Assembly: GCF_040112705.1 (NCBI RefSeq)
Contig: NZ_CP157804.1
Span: forward strand, 2,970,001 to 3,034,000
DNA from: Flagellimonas sp. MMG031
GTDB taxonomy: Bacteria > Bacteroidota > Bacteroidia > Flavobacteriales > Flavobacteriaceae
Direction of reading: 5' to 3'
Length of the DNA: 64,000 nucleotides
Position 1 is the stretch's first letter; the number at the start of each line of letters is the position of its first letter. The position numbers and the translations under genes are program-made. The notes below the pieces were generated by a model. It saw nothing but the letters and a program-made list of their open reading frames with translations. It did no database searches and was not told where the DNA came from. Shown piece by piece: positions 57,564-64,000 of the stretch.

Positions 57564-58062
57564 TAGTTTTAATTTGAATGGTTAGCATCCGAAAAATATA
57601 AAAATCTTTTGCACAATAGAAAAGAATCAACGAAATCTTAAAAAAATACCGAATCATCAATTTTTAACATCAATAATAACAAATGTAAGAATAAACTTAT
57701 TTAATAGGTGAGTATTTGATATTTTTTTGGCACTCCCTAGCTGTAAAGTCCCTTAACCAGCTCGTTACCTCAAAAATTTAACCCTACACTATTGATAAAT
57801 TAGATTCTGAGCAACCTAACCCAAGCCACTCTTTTTTTTGTAGGCAAAGCAACAACATCCTTCCTTGCAGCCTGCATAAAGCCAGAACCCCATCGAAGTG
57901 GAGTCTCTTTTCTATATGGTTTGCGCAAAAATGGAAACGCCGGGAATAGAATACTGTACTCACCGGATAAAATTGAGCACTATTGGAACTAAAAAATAAT
58001 TTTGGCTTTCAAAGCACTAAGGCCAATTATTGGGTTTCTCAAATCTTCCGTTTTTGCTGGTA
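57564..58062. other. gene-free region, possible left part of a mobile element
   Basis: About 500 bases without a gene. The 5' part is the receptor upstream region. No tRNA, IS remnant or direct repeat is recognisable, so an element end cannot be placed here with confidence. Confidence 0.4.
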
Positions 58063-58446
58063 TCAACCATCCAGCTCATCCATTTTGGGTTGCCAATCAT
58101 GTTTATTTTTTAAAAGGAGTTTTTCTATCCGATCGTAACTGTCCAACTGGTCATCCGGGAGAATATCAATGACCAATTCCAGTATGGTGATCACTGCATC
58201 ATCCTTGGATAGAAAGGGAAGTCTTGGGGAGTCCAATTCGTTTTCATTGTCAATGGTGGACATACACAACCTTAATAAGCAAGAGATGACATAACGCAAT
58301 TCTGAATTGTTTTCCACCTTGAACACTACTTCTTGGACTTGCGGTTCATCCTTGCCATGATACCTTCGTTTTCTTGGGTTCAACAAACCAATCACTTCAT
58401 CCATTAGTTCCTTTTCGTTGTTGTGACTTTCAAATTTCTTTTCCAT
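58063..58446 (-). CDS. hypothetical protein downstream of the HEPN gene
   Basis: 127 residues from MEKKFESHNNEKELMDEV; in-frame sequence further upstream overlaps the HEPN gene. It is helical, with ELRYVISCLLRLCMSTIDNENE and KDDAVITILELVIDILPDDQL. This helical part vaguely resembles the C terminus of the HEPN protein (CILALDEQ... TVLEFAKNLIPSEE), which might mean a shared ancestor. It starts 10 bases after the HEPN gene, so the two are one operon. No known function. Confidence 0.65.
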   Translation of the reverse strand: MEKKFESHNNEKELMDEVIGLLNPRKRRYHGKDEPQVQEVVFKVENNSELRYVISCLLRLCMSTIDNENELDSPRLPFLSKDDAVITILELVIDILPDDQLDSYDRIEKLLLKNKHDWQPKMDELDG

Positions 58447-58456
58447 GTCTTCTTCG

Positions 58457-59647
58457 TTAAGTTTTGGTTTCCTGATCGGAAAGCATGAGTTCTCGCATTT
58501 CATCCAGATAGTTACCCTCTTCCGAGGGTATGAGGTTCTTCGCAAACTCCAGTACGGTCTTTACATCCTCCTTGATGTTTTTGATATCCAAGGTCATGTC
58601 ACATTGCTCGTCTAAGGCCAGGATACATACATTAAGGGTCGATTTTAAGGTGTAGAAAAGGGAAAAGTGACTGTGGACGTAGACATGGTTGAGATAATAT
58701 CCTTTTTTTGTCCTTCGATTTGCAGGTCTCATCATTTCAAAGTTTTCCTTACTCAATTGCCTAATCGATTCTAATAGGTTGGCCCCTTCTACATTTTGAG
58801 GTTCAACTGAAGTCTTTTTTACACTTGTAACAAGAGTCTGTAGAAGTTCAAGTTCCTGTTCGAAGAATCGCCTGATTTCATCCAAAAAGCATTCAAGCTT
58901 TTGTTTCAAAATGTCCAACTGATCCCGTTCCATATGGAAGGAGTTATCATATCTTGAACTGGAATAGGCCCTATCCAATAGTTCCAATAAATCCATCTCT
59001 GCATTGTCATCAAGGTTGAACATTCCCTTTGTTCTGTTTATGTTCCTTTCCAAGAACTTTTGATGGACCTCAATCTTATGGCATATCTTTACTTTTCCGC
59101 AGAGAAAGCCCTCCAAGACCCGGTATCCAAGTTCAAAGCCTTGATGGGCCATAAAGGCGGCTTGGGAAAGGTTGTTATCCGACATAAAGTATATGAACCC
59201 CTTTTGAAAGGACAAACAGCCTTCCAAGGATGTCCGAAAGTCCTCTTCAATGATTGTCAGGAAGTCTTCGTTTGTTATATCTTCAAAATGGTTCCAAGGA
59301 AAGGCAATATCCTGATTTCCAAAGATTAGATGTTCGGTTCGACAATGGTTGATGAAATAAAGATTGCCATTTGCCAATTCCGTTTTGGCGTAATCACGGG
59401 AAAAGATATTGTGGAAATAATCTTGATGGTCAAAAAACAACCCTTGGACAATTGGAAGGAACTTGTTGTTGATGTCATTTTTGGATGCATCAATAATGAT
59501 GTTCCACCTGTATCTAAAGGTGTTCTTTTTTTTAAGGCCCTTGTTCAGATAGACCTGTACAACATTCGGAATTACTTTGATAATGTCCGATAAAAGCCCC
59601 TGTATCTGGGGGTCAACATGTTTCTTTCTTTGCGTTAAGGAGTCCAT
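58457..59647 (-). CDS. HEPN domain-containing protein with N-terminal nucleotidyltransferase-like part
   Basis: 396 residues. The HEPN domain lies at about 155-265 (SQAAFMAHQGFELGYRVLEG, then LDRAYSSSRYDNSF with the SRYD motif at 231-234). The N-terminal part (about 15-115) resembles a minimal nucleotidyltransferase fold but lacks the GS-x10-DxD catalytic motif. I do not see a clear Rx4-6H RNase motif. HEPN proteins often act in toxin-antitoxin or defence modules; here the small gene downstream may be its partner. The gene is divergent from the HTH/HipA-like module. Confidence 0.72.
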   Translation of the reverse strand: MDSLTQRKKHVDPQIQGLLSDIIKVIPNVVQVYLNKGLKKKNTFRYRWNIIIDASKNDINNKFLPIVQGLFFDHQDYFHNIFSRDYAKTELANGNLYFINHCRTEHLIFGNQDIAFPWNHFEDITNEDFLTIIEEDFRTSLEGCLSFQKGFIYFMSDNNLSQAAFMAHQGFELGYRVLEGFLCGKVKICHKIEVHQKFLERNINRTKGMFNLDDNAEMDLLELLDRAYSSSRYDNSFHMERDQLDILKQKLECFLDEIRRFFEQELELLQTLVTSVKKTSVEPQNVEGANLLESIRQLSKENFEMMRPANRRTKKGYYLNHVYVHSHFSLFYTLKSTLNVCILALDEQCDMTLDIKNIKEDVKTVLEFAKNLIPSEEGNYLDEMRELMLSDQETKT

Positions 59648-59801
59648 ATATCAATATTTTAAGTTGAATTTCAATTCAATTGTGTAGATTTTCTGTACTA
59701 ATGTATAAAATAAATACTCATTTTCTATGCCGATTGGATAAAATTTTATATAGGTGTATCTAAAATCTATCTTTATGTATCAAAATTTTACCTACCCTAT
59801 A

Positions 59802-60017
59802 ATGACAGACCTAGGATTATATTTGGCCAAAAAGTCCATCAACAAAGCGGAAGTAGCGAGACGGACTGGCATAAGCAAATCAAGGATAAGTCAATTGAGT
59901 TCCAACCCAACCACTAAACTTAGGGCGGAGGAACTCTACCTTATTTCATTGGCCATTGACATCGACCCCTGTGAAGTAATCAAAGAGTTATATGGAGGCC
60001 TGAAGCTTCCTAATTAA
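59802..60017 (+). CDS. HipB-like XRE-family HTH regulator
   Basis: 71 residues from MTDLGLYLAKKSINKAE (an ATG at 59775 would add nine residues). Helix-turn-helix of XRE type: KAEVARRTGISKSRISQLSSN, then EELYLISLAIDIDPCEVIKEL. The size and position fit an antitoxin-type DNA-binding protein that represses its own promoter. A 149-base gap separates it from the kinase gene, which could hold a second promoter. Confidence 0.8.
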   Translation: MTDLGLYLAKKSINKAEVARRTGISKSRISQLSSNPTTKLRAEELYLISLAIDIDPCEVIKELYGGLKLPN

Positions 60018-60166
60018 TGTTTTCCCCGCAATCGTGAATTAGGTTTAGAGGATTTTGTCAGACTAAACTGCAATCTACTTCGTTCGGCGCTAAATTTTTT
60101 TTCATTTATATTGGGCTTGAGAAATAAAATTGATTTCGTAAGCAATAATTTACTCAGACTTTTATC

Positions 60167-61186
60167 ATGAAGAAAAAATTGGACCAAAGTGATAATTTTA
60201 TACACCTAAAGCCATTACCTATTCTTGGCAAGAGTGGTTATAAACATGGTATGTCTGGTCTATTGGTAGCTAAAAAACATTCTTACTCAGTAATAAAGGA
60301 TGTAGCTGTTGGAGGAGACGCACCCAAGGATTTAATAAGGCTTTACGAATATGGATGCGGAAGAAAAACAAATTTCAATGGTTGGCCTATATATATTGCA
60401 AAATTAGGCCATAAATGGTATCCCTGTGAATCAATAACAGAACAACTTATTTCAGATATTGGAAGATGGTTGGGGTTTTTACTTGCGGATTCTAAATTAT
60501 GTGTCCTAGGTGGTCAAATTAGATTTTTATCCAAATACTTTTTATCTAGAAACAAGGAACAGCTATATCATGGGGCTAATTTGTATGCCGGGTATTTAAA
60601 TGATGAGCAATTTGTTGATGAAGTAGAACTTGCCCAACAGACTCAATCTTTTTTCACAGTGAATTTTACAAAAGAAACATTAAGTCATTTTTTTAAGGAC
60701 ACTAAAGAAGAGTTGTTTGCCAGATTTATGGAGATGCTTTTTTTTGATGCTTTGGTGGGAAATAATGACCGACATATGTACAATTGGGGTGTCATAAGAG
60801 ATTTATTTGGCATAAAGAACGCAAAATATGCGCCAATTTATGATTCGGCACGAGGTTTGCTCTGGAATTATACTGAAAAAAAGATAGATAATATTTTAAA
60901 TAGTGGTCAAACAAAATTATCAATAGAAAGTTATTGCAATGCTAGCCGACCAAAAATAGGTGTTGAAGGAAAAAGCAAAATAAATCACTTTACATTAATC
61001 GAAGTTCATAAAGAATATTTTAAAACACTTGATTTGGTGAAGAATTCCCTTAAACCTGAAGTTTTGGACCAAGTTCTGGAAAATATTGATAAGAATTACA
61101 AAACACTATTAAGCAATAATAGACGTTTATTAATTAAGGATATTTTAAGATATCGAGTTGAAGTAATTAGAAATACATTAATTTAG
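60167..61186 (+). CDS. HipA-like kinase lacking the HipA_N domain (HipT-like)
   Basis: 339 residues. Kinase-type marks of the HipA_C family: a Gly/Ser-rich N-terminal loop (ILGKSGYKHGMSGLL, residues 19-33), Lys79 (IYIAKLG), Glu92 in a helix (TEQLISDIGRWLG), catalytic GNNDRHMYNWG with Asp201 and Asn206, and YAPIYDSARGLLW with Asp226 in the DFG-like position. The N-terminal subdomain of HipA is missing; a HipA_N-like protein is encoded 4 bases downstream. HipA kinases phosphorylate tRNA synthetases (GltX, TrpS). The gene is AT-rich against the background, which suggests transfer. Confidence 0.82.
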   Translation: MKKKLDQSDNFIHLKPLPILGKSGYKHGMSGLLVAKKHSYSVIKDVAVGGDAPKDLIRLYEYGCGRKTNFNGWPIYIAKLGHKWYPCESITEQLISDIGRWLGFLLADSKLCVLGGQIRFLSKYFLSRNKEQLYHGANLYAGYLNDEQFVDEVELAQQTQSFFTVNFTKETLSHFFKDTKEELFARFMEMLFFDALVGNNDRHMYNWGVIRDLFGIKNAKYAPIYDSARGLLWNYTEKKIDNILNSGQTKLSIESYCNASRPKIGVEGKSKINHFTLIEVHKEYFKTLDLVKNSLKPEVLDQVLENIDKNYKTLLSNNRRLLIKDILRYRVEVIRNTLI

Positions 61187-61190
61187 CACC

Positions 61191-61601
61191 ATGAAAGAAG
61201 TTATAAAAGACGTATTTAAAAAACTGACGCCTTGGGCGGTGGATCCGGATATTAAGTCAGACTTCAAAAATGAAAATGATCATGGAGAGTTTGAACTTAA
61301 ATTTGAAAACAATATAATTGGTTTTTTGAAATACGATGATTCAAAATGGACTTTTAAATATTCTGATGAATTTATTTCGGAGAAACCTCTTTTACCGTTG
61401 ATTGATTTTCCAAATGTTAATAAGGTTTATGAATTTGAGCATTTGATGCCATTTTTTGCTGCTCGAATTCCAAATTTGAACCAACCTTATCATGAGAAGA
61501 AGATTAAAAAATTTAATGGAAATAAAAAAAGTGAAGTGTCTATGTTGAGGATTTTCGGAAAGAAATCTATTAATAATCCTTTTGAATTAAGTTTTATATA
61601 A
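61191..61601 (+). CDS. HipA_N-like small protein (HipS-like)
   Basis: 136 residues. The middle and end follow the HipA_N pattern: IIGFLKYDDSKWTFKYSDEF (compare 'G.L....G..tFkY...w'), PLLPLIDFPNVNKVYEFEHL and LMPFFAARIPNLNQPYHEK (compare 'F.NLLPD...R'), ending with IFGKKSINNPFELSF. In HipBST systems a stand-alone HipA_N protein, HipS, is the antitoxin of the kinase HipT. Here the order is B, then T, then S. It begins 4 bases after the kinase stop. A terminator follows. Confidence 0.68.
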   Translation: MKEVIKDVFKKLTPWAVDPDIKSDFKNENDHGEFELKFENNIIGFLKYDDSKWTFKYSDEFISEKPLLPLIDFPNVNKVYEFEHLMPFFAARIPNLNQPYHEKKIKKFNGNKKSEVSMLRIFGKKSINNPFELSFI

Positions 61602-61624
61602 AGCTTTAAGAATTCATAGAAAAA

Positions 61625-61650
61625 GGTCAACAATTTGTTGGCCTTTTTTT
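61625..61650 (+). terminator. rho-independent terminator of the HipB/T/S-like module
   Basis: Stem GGTCAACA / TGTTGGCC (8 bp with one G-T pair), loop ATT, then seven T residues. It starts 23 bases after the last gene of the module. Confidence 0.88.
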
Positions 61651-61755
61651 GTTACCGCTAGATTCTATAAGACATTATGTAAATCCTTATATATTATTGT
61701 TTTTAAAAGCATAAAAATAGCCCCCAAATTTTACCCCCAACTTTTGCGCATGGAT

Positions 61756-61811
61756 CCTGTCGGGTTTTTGTAGCGTTCAGGCAGATAAGCGTAAAGCAAA
61801 AACCCGATAGG
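61756..61811. repeat. long inverted repeat at the 3' end of the mobilization operon
   Basis: Arms CCTGTCGGGTTTTTG (61756-61770) and CAAAAACCCGATAGG (61797-61811) pair over 15 bp with one G-T pair; the loop is 26 bases. No T run follows on either strand. A nearby G-tract pair (GGGGGTAAAATTTGGGGG on the minus strand) lies at about 61722-61739. It is either a terminator-like structure or part of a transfer or attachment site. Confidence 0.7.
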
Positions 61812-61832
61812 GCGCAACCTACTTGTTGGATT

Positions 61833-62855
61833 TCAGTAGCCCATGTCCTCACCAGTACCTCTGCCCTTATCGATACTCCTTCCAAGGGCTTTGATAATCT
61901 TGGCCGCAATCTGTACTTTATTGGTCGGGATACTGGGAGCTTTGACCCCCATGGTCTTAAGTAGTTTAAAGGCCATGTCCTTTTCCTTGGTGGGCAGACC
62001 CATGACCTTGGCAAAGAACTTTCCCGGTTCCTTGGCATGGGCTTTTCTACCAACATAGGATTCCACATAGTTCCTCTTGAAGCCCGTTGTCCTGTCAAAG
62101 GTCTTCTCGGCTGCTTGGTAAAAACTGTCCCGATCAAATCCTCTCTTGACCGTCTTTCCGTTCAGTTCCACTTCCGAGGCCTTGTGCTTTGCCATTGGGG
62201 AAAGCGTATAGGTGTTCGTCACGTCCCTTCTGCTGACAATGATATGAATGTGGGTCTGTGGCCCCTCTTTTTGCATTCCTGCGGCCACCAATTGCTCGTT
62301 CTGTTTATGTGGGGCCAATCTTTCTTGCTCTTTGATCCTTTTTTCAAGCTCATTGACATTCCCGATGGATTCGCCCCGTTCCACTTTCCGTATCTCGTTC
62401 CTGAGTCTAGCTATTTCACCACGGTACGGCGCATTCTCCTGAACCTGTTTGTCAAATCCCCGATAGGTGCGCTCATGCTCTATCTTGGCATAATATTTCA
62501 GGTTCTCGGCCTTGACCTCTTGGTTCCTATGAAAACTCTTGGCATAGTCCTCCATGAGTTTCCTTGTGTATTCCCTTAGCATGTTCGGGTCATTTCCAAT
62601 GGCCTTAAGTTCCCTTTGGTTGGGACTGACCACTATGGAATAGAATTTTGGATCCTTCTGCCTCAGTTTGGCCGTATTGGCATCTATTTCATCGATAACC
62701 GTTTGAGGGCTTACGTTGTCGTTCTCTTGGTCAAAGAATTCCTCCCTGAGTTCGGGCGACCTATCCTCGTTCTCCTTTTCCAGATAGTCCACATAGTTCC
62801 CCACACTGGAGTTGTAGGTACTGCCCATTTTCTGTGCTGAGATGGTAAGGTACAT
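61833..62855 (-). CDS. MobB-type relaxase (DUF5712 family)
   Basis: 340 residues. Relaxase features: N-terminal GNYVDYLEKEN, KIEHERTYRG (about 124-133) and the histidine motif THIHIIVSRRD at 201-211, which holds the metal-binding HxH. The C terminus is basic (AAKIIKALGRSIDKGRG). DUF5712 proteins are the large mobilization proteins of Bacteroidota mobilizable elements and nick oriT with the help of MobA. It begins 5 bases after the MobA gene, so they form one operon. Confidence 0.85.
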   Translation of the reverse strand: MYLTISAQKMGSTYNSSVGNYVDYLEKENEDRSPELREEFFDQENDNVSPQTVIDEIDANTAKLRQKDPKFYSIVVSPNQRELKAIGNDPNMLREYTRKLMEDYAKSFHRNQEVKAENLKYYAKIEHERTYRGFDKQVQENAPYRGEIARLRNEIRKVERGESIGNVNELEKRIKEQERLAPHKQNEQLVAAGMQKEGPQTHIHIIVSRRDVTNTYTLSPMAKHKASEVELNGKTVKRGFDRDSFYQAAEKTFDRTTGFKRNYVESYVGRKAHAKEPGKFFAKVMGLPTKEKDMAFKLLKTMGVKAPSIPTNKVQIAAKIIKALGRSIDKGRGTGEDMGY

Positions 62856-62860
62856 GGGCG

Positions 62861-63445
62861 TTATCTTAATTGATGTTTCAGGCTTTCAAAATCCCCAAAG
62901 CCCATATTGATCTTTAGATATGGCTTTCCCATCATTGGCTCCACCTTCTCAACATTGTGCAGAATCTCATTACAGCGTTTCTTATAGCTTTGAAATTCTT
63001 TTAGCATTCTATCGTGCTCCACTTTTGGAACGGTATTCCTAGGTTCCAAAAAATCCATTCGTTCTTCATGCATCTTGACGGGTTCACGTTTAGGTTTTCT
63101 CCCATCCTTTACATAGGCCTCGTAAAGAATGAGCATCATTTCATAAGTGGGCCTTATACTGGTCTTCTCCATGTTCTTGATAATGGCGATGAGCCTATCG
63201 AATTTTTTCATCATATTCACTTCCAGCTTTTTGATACTGTCAAGGATGACCTTTGTTCCCTCACCAAAAGGGTCAAGGTTGTTCTCCTTGAAGTAGCTTA
63301 TCATTCCATCCAACACTTCGCTATGCGATTTGTTGAACCTTTTGGAATAAGTGCGAAAGCGTGTGGCCGTTTCCTTCTTTACCGTGATATTGGAATAACC
63401 TCCTGTTCCTTTCTTTGTTCTGCCATTTGTTTTTTGCTTTTCCAT
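62861..63445 (-). CDS. MobA-type accessory protein (BfmA/BtgA family)
   Basis: 194 residues. The basic N terminus has ITVKKETATRFRTYSKRFNKSHSEVLDGMI, a ribbon-helix-helix-like element for oriT binding, and a coiled region follows (EHDRMLKEFQSYKKRCNEIL). BfmA and BtgA are small mobilization proteins of Bacteroides elements, always beside a relaxase, as here. The region 63446-63700 upstream is the expected place for oriT. Confidence 0.82.
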   Translation of the reverse strand: MEKQKTNGRTKKGTGGYSNITVKKETATRFRTYSKRFNKSHSEVLDGMISYFKENNLDPFGEGTKVILDSIKKLEVNMMKKFDRLIAIIKNMEKTSIRPTYEMMLILYEAYVKDGRKPKREPVKMHEERMDFLEPRNTVPKVEHDRMLKEFQSYKKRCNEILHNVEKVEPMMGKPYLKINMGFGDFESLKHQLR

Positions 63446-63631
63446 AGGTATGATTTTGTTTTTTAGTGAAATTGCGTCAATTTTTTCGTCAAAAATTTCC
63501 AGTGTTTACAGGGCTTCCCAAAGGGTTTACTGTAGATTTCGGAAAAGTCTACTGTAGCCCCAATTTTTGCACAGTATTTCAAATGCTGTTCAATTGACTG
63601 GTTTTCAACTTGTTGAAGACCCGAAAACAAC

Positions 63632-63689
63632 GGTGATGGCGCAATTTGCGCATCACCCTCTTGCTATTCCTACGTCCCGCAAGCGGGAC
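63632..63689. other. oriT-like hairpin pair upstream of mobA
   Basis: Two palindromes stand between the integrase and mobA genes. At 63632-63657, GGTGATG and CATCACC enclose CGCAA/TTGCG (12-bp stem with one unpaired G). At 63674-63689, GTCCCGC/GCGGGAC encloses AA. Nearby at 63526-63556 TACTGTAG occurs twice directly. Neither hairpin has a T run, so they are not typical terminators. Placement next to mobA suggests oriT. Confidence 0.45.
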
Positions 63690-63707: not shown

Positions 63708-64000
63708 TCATCCTTCGGCTGCTTTTTTGGTCTGCATATGTTCTATAAGGTTTTGCATGTCCTCCCCTATCTTATGCTCCAGTACCCTTGCATAGATCTG
63801 GGTAGTGGAAAGTTTGGTATGGCCGAGCATTTTTGAAACGGTTTCTATCGGCACTCCATTGGAAAGGGTTACCGTTGTTGCAAAAGTGTGCCTGGCCGAA
63901 TGAAAGGATATGGTCTTGTAAATACCACAAGCCTTGGTAATCTCTTTTAGATATTTGTTTGTCTTTTGATTAGAGAGTACAGGTAGTATTTTAGTATTGG
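63708..64000 (-). CDS. tyrosine-type site-specific recombinase, C-terminal part
   Basis: The window edge cuts the gene; about 97 codons remain, ending with TGA at 63708-63710. Catalytic-domain motifs are complete: SFHSARHTFATT (H-x-x-R box), MLGHTKLSTTQIYARV (H/W position and nucleophile Tyr). The end (EDMQNLIEHMQTKKAAEG) is typical of Bacteroidota conjugative-transposon integrases. It moves the element that carries the mob genes and, by position, perhaps the HEPN and HipA-like modules. Confidence 0.9.
   Translation of the reverse strand, partial: NTKILPVLSNQKTNKYLKEITKACGIYKTISFHSARHTFATTVTLSNGVPIETVSKMLGHTKLSTTQIYARVLEHKIGEDMQNLIEHMQTKKAAEG

Follow-up and report, generated by a model that had tools for sequence, protein, structure and literature searches.

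Two-gene and three-gene systems built on Hip kinases provide the closest described counterparts of the locus considered here. In the hipBST systems of E. coli O127 and Legionella, stand-alone HipS proteins act as antitoxins (PMC10627512, PMC9325769, in the sections drawn on here), and the corresponding N-subdomain 1 in HipA is described as part of the active toxin (same sections of PMC10627512). Kinase-first pairs without a helix-turn-helix (HTH) partner, named hipJS and hipIN, are described in the relevant part of the survey by Gerdes et al. (2021, PMC8262856). A literature search on these two names returned that survey and no functional study, and the name PDC-M03, a PADLOC candidate system, did not occur in the literature found by our search. 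The strings "bacteroid" and "flavobacter" are absent from the main text of the survey.

The locus lies in a 64,000-nucleotide stretch of the Flagellimonas sp. MMG031 genome, and "the window" below means the whole of that stretch. A preliminary description had read it as a three-gene relative of HipBST in the order B-T-S, with an HTH gene (B), a kinase gene (T) and a small HipA_N-like gene (S). Its features, in window coordinates, are as follows.

59802..60017, + strand: B, XRE-type HTH gene, 71 aa (ORF; Pfam HTH_26, 9.2e-9, above the curated cut-off), judged a neighbour of the pair and not a member
60018..60090, + strand: tail of the B block in a divergent form (multiple alignment with ten relatives)
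60091..60166, + strand: stretch of about 76 bases leading up to T, where the T-S cassette likely begins (3' of the resemblance to the B-block tail)
60167..61186, + strand: T, 339 aa, Ser/Thr kinase core of the HipA_C type and likely toxin (ORF, Pfam, PADLOC)
60305..60328, + strand: Gly-rich loop of T, residues 47-54, with Ala47 and Gly49 (motif of relatives)
60758..60784, + strand: catalytic motif of T, GNNDRHMYN, residues 198-206, with D201 and N206 (pattern in relatives)
60839..60847, + strand: Mg-binding motif of T, YDS, with D226 (pattern in relatives)
61191..61601, + strand: S, 136 aa, separate protein of the HipS / HipA N-subdomain 1 type and likely antitoxin
61449..61484, + strand: S motif PFFAARIPNLNQ, residues 87-98; E. 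coli HipS has PEGW at this place
61616..61652, + strand: terminator-like hairpin 3' of S (folding against shuffles)

Layout of the locus

Open reading frames and Pfam matches agree with the preliminary description in placing an XRE HTH protein, a HipA-family kinase and a 136-residue HipA_N-like protein here, separated by 149 bases (B to T) and 4 bases (T to S) in ORF coordinates. A longer form of B could start at a GTG at 59754; the frame starts at ATG in several relatives. The earlier statement that all three genes lie in AT-rich sequence holds for T (31.8% GC) and S (28.2%) but not for B, which at 42.6% is close to the window (43.8%). The strong terminator that had been noticed after S is supported by folding (-18.8 kcal/mol, z -5.4, with none of 200 shuffles equally good), although the hairpin is not in the output of a simple terminator scan. 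The 149 bases between B and T consist of about 73 bases showing weak alignment to the B-block tail and about 76 before T. A clear second promoter was rejected for these bases, because a scan with a Bacteroidota-type promoter motif, allowing at most one mismatch in the -7 box, gave no match in this gap; the same scan gave one match upstream of B.

On the minus strand behind the pair lie a gene of the relaxase-like family DUF5712 (window 61833-62855; 4.7e-106) and one for a tyrosine integrase of 411 aa (6.7e-19; window 63708-64000 and on to 64943 in contig L090), so that T-S stands beside mobility genes. Elsewhere in the same genome, outside the window, a HipA_C protein in a 430-aa frame (G000:C1:1863423-1864058; 2.4e-53) is likely a canonical HipA.

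B belongs to a block of its own

When the DNA of 59600-61700 was compared with the genus, matches were found in 20 of 71 genomes, over the whole length only in the window's own genome and in G021 (F. oceanensis), which is probably the same record as locus L008, a near-copy of the window. At ten places in nine genomes the match, at 86-89% identity, is confined to query positions 1 to 416-456, which hold B and the DNA upstream of it. B has more distant matches, at 66-71%, in eight further genomes, and one other genome matches 37 bases elsewhere. T is absent from all eighteen genomes with a partial match, and B stands without T-S ten times in nine of the 71 genomes. These ten places share a block of about 2.7-3.4 kb, 82-92% identical among themselves, whose genes (about 115, 115, 147 and 405 aa) point away from B. 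The shared block ends 243-296 bases past the start of B (at least 285 in nine of the ten), with different genes beyond, and the window's close match to six of the ten ends at 60015-60055, followed by a weaker resemblance to about 60090.

Seen from the side of the pair, a relative of B was found only at L008 among the loci of the best 80 of 122 relatives of T. HTH genes of another kind stand upstream at L009, L022, L027 and L058, by reading of the neighbourhoods, and a scan of 74 small upstream ORFs, drawn from the 75 of the 80 loci that have at least 300 bases upstream, found HTH_3 in four and HTH_26 in four, the near-copy included. With its own block, its ten places without T-S and its single relative beside a T-S pair, B was rejected as the HipB of this locus. 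The proposed three-gene module was not confirmed, B being the end of another block. The window and G021 share B-T-S together with the relaxase gene that follows, at 92% over 57906-63670, so B may have a role in these two genomes.

The block (58063-60090 in the window; contigs L100-L109 from nine Flagellimonas genomes) ends past B with a tail some 70 bases long, which looks like an insertion site for cargo. Genes beyond the tail differ from place to place, with GNAT-like and type I restriction genes among them by eye. In L104 a second copy of the tail lies about 3.7 kb further along (97% identical over 72 bases). A 25-base part of the tail, at up to two mismatches, was located in 12 of 70 genomes of the genus, with four occurrences in G001.

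T and S occur as a pair across phyla

Scanning genome contigs with an alignment of T gave 122 confirmed relatives, the best 80 of which were kept as L008-L087; L055 and L056 are apparently duplicate entries of a single contig. At all 80 of these loci S lies downstream of T on the same strand, so the T-before-S order of the preliminary description stood up in the neighbourhood survey. The gap between the two genes is between -60 and +40 in 69 of 75 single-frame loci (extremes -154 and 313) and most commonly -4 (18 loci by hand count). Bacteroidota, Verrucomicrobiota, Planctomycetota, Latescibacterota and Chlorobiota are the phyla named in the record titles. Motif counts were taken from 72 of the 80 loci, the eight in which T or S is split or shortened entering the order count only; in the alignment used, the last T residues are still shifted and one S row is misplaced.

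One relative, P0091, has an 84% identical T, and another, P0134, is a natural T-S fusion in one chain, the single case among 317 candidates of that size found by searching with the S part; its predicted model has a pTM of 0.67, and the fusion may have arisen from a lost stop codon. Within the genus T is found in two of 71 genomes and is absent from G381, a genome of the same species, which fits horizontal spread, and S is found in two of 299 genomes of the family. T has no match in 72,556 plasmid records, one distant match in phage records, which is a hipIN-type pair, and two loci in a virus collection, where the search with S confirmed no locus. The T-S pairs on the two virus-collection contigs lie at L175 2713-4126 and L176 4926-6339. 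By eye, genes resembling type I restriction genes stand just upstream of T-S at L070, L071, L072, L074 and L077; family scans of the 74 upstream neighbours bore out restriction-type genes for a few.

T is an intact kinase core and S has a predicted HipS fold

T matches Pfam HipA_C at 3.9e-8, above the curated cut-off, and its closest solved relative is CtkA of Helicobacter pylori (profile E 1.4e-10). It is a complete kinase core without N-subdomain 1: the domain matches agree with the absence of the N-terminal HipA subdomain first noticed, and Asp201, Asn206 and Asp226 are where they had been placed. The catalytic (DRH) and Mg-binding (YDS) patterns are both present in 72 of 72 intact relatives (from the best 80 of 122), and the motifs of T itself are intact. 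In the Gly-rich loop, which we matched to Ser150 of HipA by our own alignment, Ser or Thr stands at position 47 or 49 in 46 of the 71 relatives that have the motif, one of the 72 intact loci being left out for want of the pattern; the near-copy L008 is among the 25 with neither. Given Ala and Gly at these two positions of T, the autophosphorylation switch known from HipT may, to judge from sequence, be missing in this copy and others like it.

S matches Couple_hipA in Pfam (1.8e-6) and couple_hipA in NCBIfam (7.9e-7), both above curated cut-offs, and shows no other Pfam domain up to E 1, HIRAN included. Structure prediction, a check proposed in the preliminary description, gave a model that matches both HipA N-subdomain 1 and HipS, and as modelled S carries the N-subdomain 1 fold as a separate protein. 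When S is aligned to 7ab3_B, two residues are absent where Gly-Trp stand. Arg92 and Pro94 are invariant in the 72 S proteins of intact loci (from the best 80 of 122), 70 of which have PFFxxR(I/L)P and 70 an NPFxL-like tail; no Trp follows within ten residues of PFFxxR(I/L)P in any of the 70 with that motif. Trp15 of S (LTPW) was considered as a wedge candidate and dropped, TPW occurring near the start in only five of 72 relatives. Because S lacks the wedge's Gly-Trp and carries an invariant Arg near that place, it likely contacts the kinase in another way than E. coli HipS does.

T groups with hipIN-type kinases and apart from HipT

A tree of 50 kinases, labelled by gene order and length, comprised 22 of the 72 T proteins, 7 hipIN-type kinases, 9 HipT and 12 HipA. 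T and the hipIN-type kinases are split from HipT and HipA with support 100/99; T forms one group (91/86), and T and the hipIN-type kinases are separate groups. Placing T in one group with the nine HipT rows, so labelled by gene order and length, was rejected (p-AU 0.0068), and T was accordingly rejected as a HipT. Profile scores run in the same order, with 60-80 bits for hipIN-type kinases, at most 33 for HipT and at most 15 for HipA against the T profile, and 28-49 bits for hipIN-type partners and at most 26 for HipS against the S profile.

Our searches also met five hipBST operons, at L003, L005 and L007 (genus), L006 (order) and L075 (Gillisia). All are B-S-T, the HTH gene overlapping hipS or ending 9 bases before it and the kinase gene following, and their HipS proteins have PEG in all five and PEGW in two. 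With true hipBST in this order, B found elsewhere without T-S and T off the HipT side, the idea of a HipBST relative with its own HipB was not supported. At L075 a T-S pair is also present, about 1.3 kb beyond the hipBST operon.

The second model of PDC-M03, judged by its matches, is HipS plus HIRAN. HIRAN was detected at 2.2e-12 in the partner protein of Clostridioides phage phiCDKH02, used as a control, and at 6.9e-5, below the cut-off, in the partner at L114. In that phage (L134 2863-4452) the hipIN-type kinase and HIRAN pair adjoins an integrase gene.

Discussion

We consider it probable that the locus is a two-gene pair, T-S, likely a type II toxin-antitoxin module, and that B comes from a different DNA block; because B belongs elsewhere, T-S is likely a member of a known two-gene toxin-antitoxin kind. 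A rearranged HipBST, with B as cognate repressor, T as HipT and S as HipS shifted to the end, would account for B lying 149 bases upstream of T on the same strand, for the B-T-S order that the window shares with F. oceanensis, and for some HTH gene being upstream at a few other loci (L009, L022, L027, L058). We give it hardly any credence, however, because B occurs ten times in its own block without T-S and has no relative at the best 80 of 122 loci apart from L008, because T falls outside the HipT group, and because the five true hipBST operons are B-S-T. It is also very improbable that T-S is a two-subunit regulatory kinase in which S steers or activates T and is no antitoxin. In HipA the subdomain that corresponds to S belongs to the active toxin (PMC10627512, in the section cited above), S follows T without exception at the best 80 of 122 loci and P0134 joins the two, but the known stand-alone HipS proteins (E. 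coli O127, Legionella) are described as antitoxins in the cited parts of PMC10627512 and PMC9325769, and the patchy distribution fits a mobile module.

Another possibility, which we think unlikely, is that the pair is chiefly anti-phage, with S holding T until a phage product removes S and T then aborting infection. T and S both match PDC-M03 (5.2e-35 to PDC-M03A, 8.4e-12 to PDC-M03B), T-S pairs occur on two virus-collection contigs, and a hipIN-type pair sits beside an integrase in a phage. The 74 upstream neighbours include two restriction, two methyltransferase and two specificity model matches of type I, counts that come without a control set, so that we claim no enrichment. On the other hand, the upstream families among the matches listed are mostly not defence genes, and PDC-M03 is only a candidate, whose second model S matches only in the first half (profile positions 21-106 of 245). 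A defence role and a toxin-antitoxin mechanism are in any case compatible with each other.

If T-S is a toxin-antitoxin pair, T would halt growth by phosphorylating an essential protein of the host, possibly an aminoacyl-tRNA synthetase; toxicity of T and neutralisation by S are likely by analogy with HipT and HipS. The HipS fold of S makes the corresponding site on T the prime candidate for binding. S would then occupy the N-lobe of T in the way HipS occupies that of HipT, through a contact that is probably unlike that of E. coli HipS, and would keep the Gly-rich loop from closing on ATP; the HipS of Legionella is described as changing this same loop and stopping ATP binding (PMC9325769, in the section used). 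S would follow T on one transcript, with frames adjacent or overlapping. Neither T nor S yielded a DNA-binding domain in the searches, so the pair would lack repression by a HipB. T would be freed when some trigger causes S to be lost or released, and the pair likely travels between genomes as cargo.

More tentatively, and with more doubt than confidence, we speculate that T-S represents a separate large family of Hip kinases in Bacteroidota, Verrucomicrobiota, Planctomycetota and neighbours, with neither HipB nor HIRAN. Its antitoxin would block the kinase through a new contact, in which the invariant Arg in the PFFxxRIP loop and the conserved NPFxL-like tail replace the Trp wedge. Kinase-then-HipS would be the ancient arrangement in this branch, found in hipIN and hipL as well, and hipBST would have come to separate kinase and HipS genes independently, in the opposite order.

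The locus corrects a tempting annotation, since an XRE gene does not become the HipB of a Hip kinase simply by lying upstream of it. Kinase-first HipS pairs form a wide family in phyla hardly treated by the main text of the Hip survey (PMC8262856), and the HipS-fold protein of T-S pairs is without the known inhibitory Trp. With such a family at hand, it becomes directly testable whether inhibition of Hip kinases by HipS-fold proteins follows one shared principle, the holding of the Gly-rich loop, or depends on family-specific contacts.

Comparison with known systems

T-S resembles hipBST, as described for E. coli O127 and Legionella in the cited parts of PMC10627512 and PMC9325769, in having the kinase core and N-subdomain 1 as separate proteins and in the HipS fold of S. 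It differs in its order, T-S instead of S-T, in that B is not cognate and T lies outside the HipT group, and in that S is without the Gly-Trp wedge (Trp65 in E. coli; the wedge is not present in all HipS). Phosphorylation of TrpS is a further hallmark of hipBST. With hipIN, as outlined in PMC8262856 and corresponding by content to PADLOC PDC-M03, it shares a kinase gene in first place, a HipS-like domain encoded downstream and the grouping of T with its kinases, but S has no HIRAN and T and the hipIN-type kinases form separate groups on the tree. The toxin-before-antitoxin order, which the preliminary description had taken to change the regulatory logic, would hold for T-S but is not new, as hipJS and hipIN have it in that account. 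T is longer (339 aa) than the 279-321 aa given in PMC8262856 for the short families together, hipJS among them. In organisation, as described there, T-S fits hipJS: a kinase gene comes first and a stand-alone HipS-like gene second, with no DNA-binding partner and no DNA-binding domain in the partner protein.
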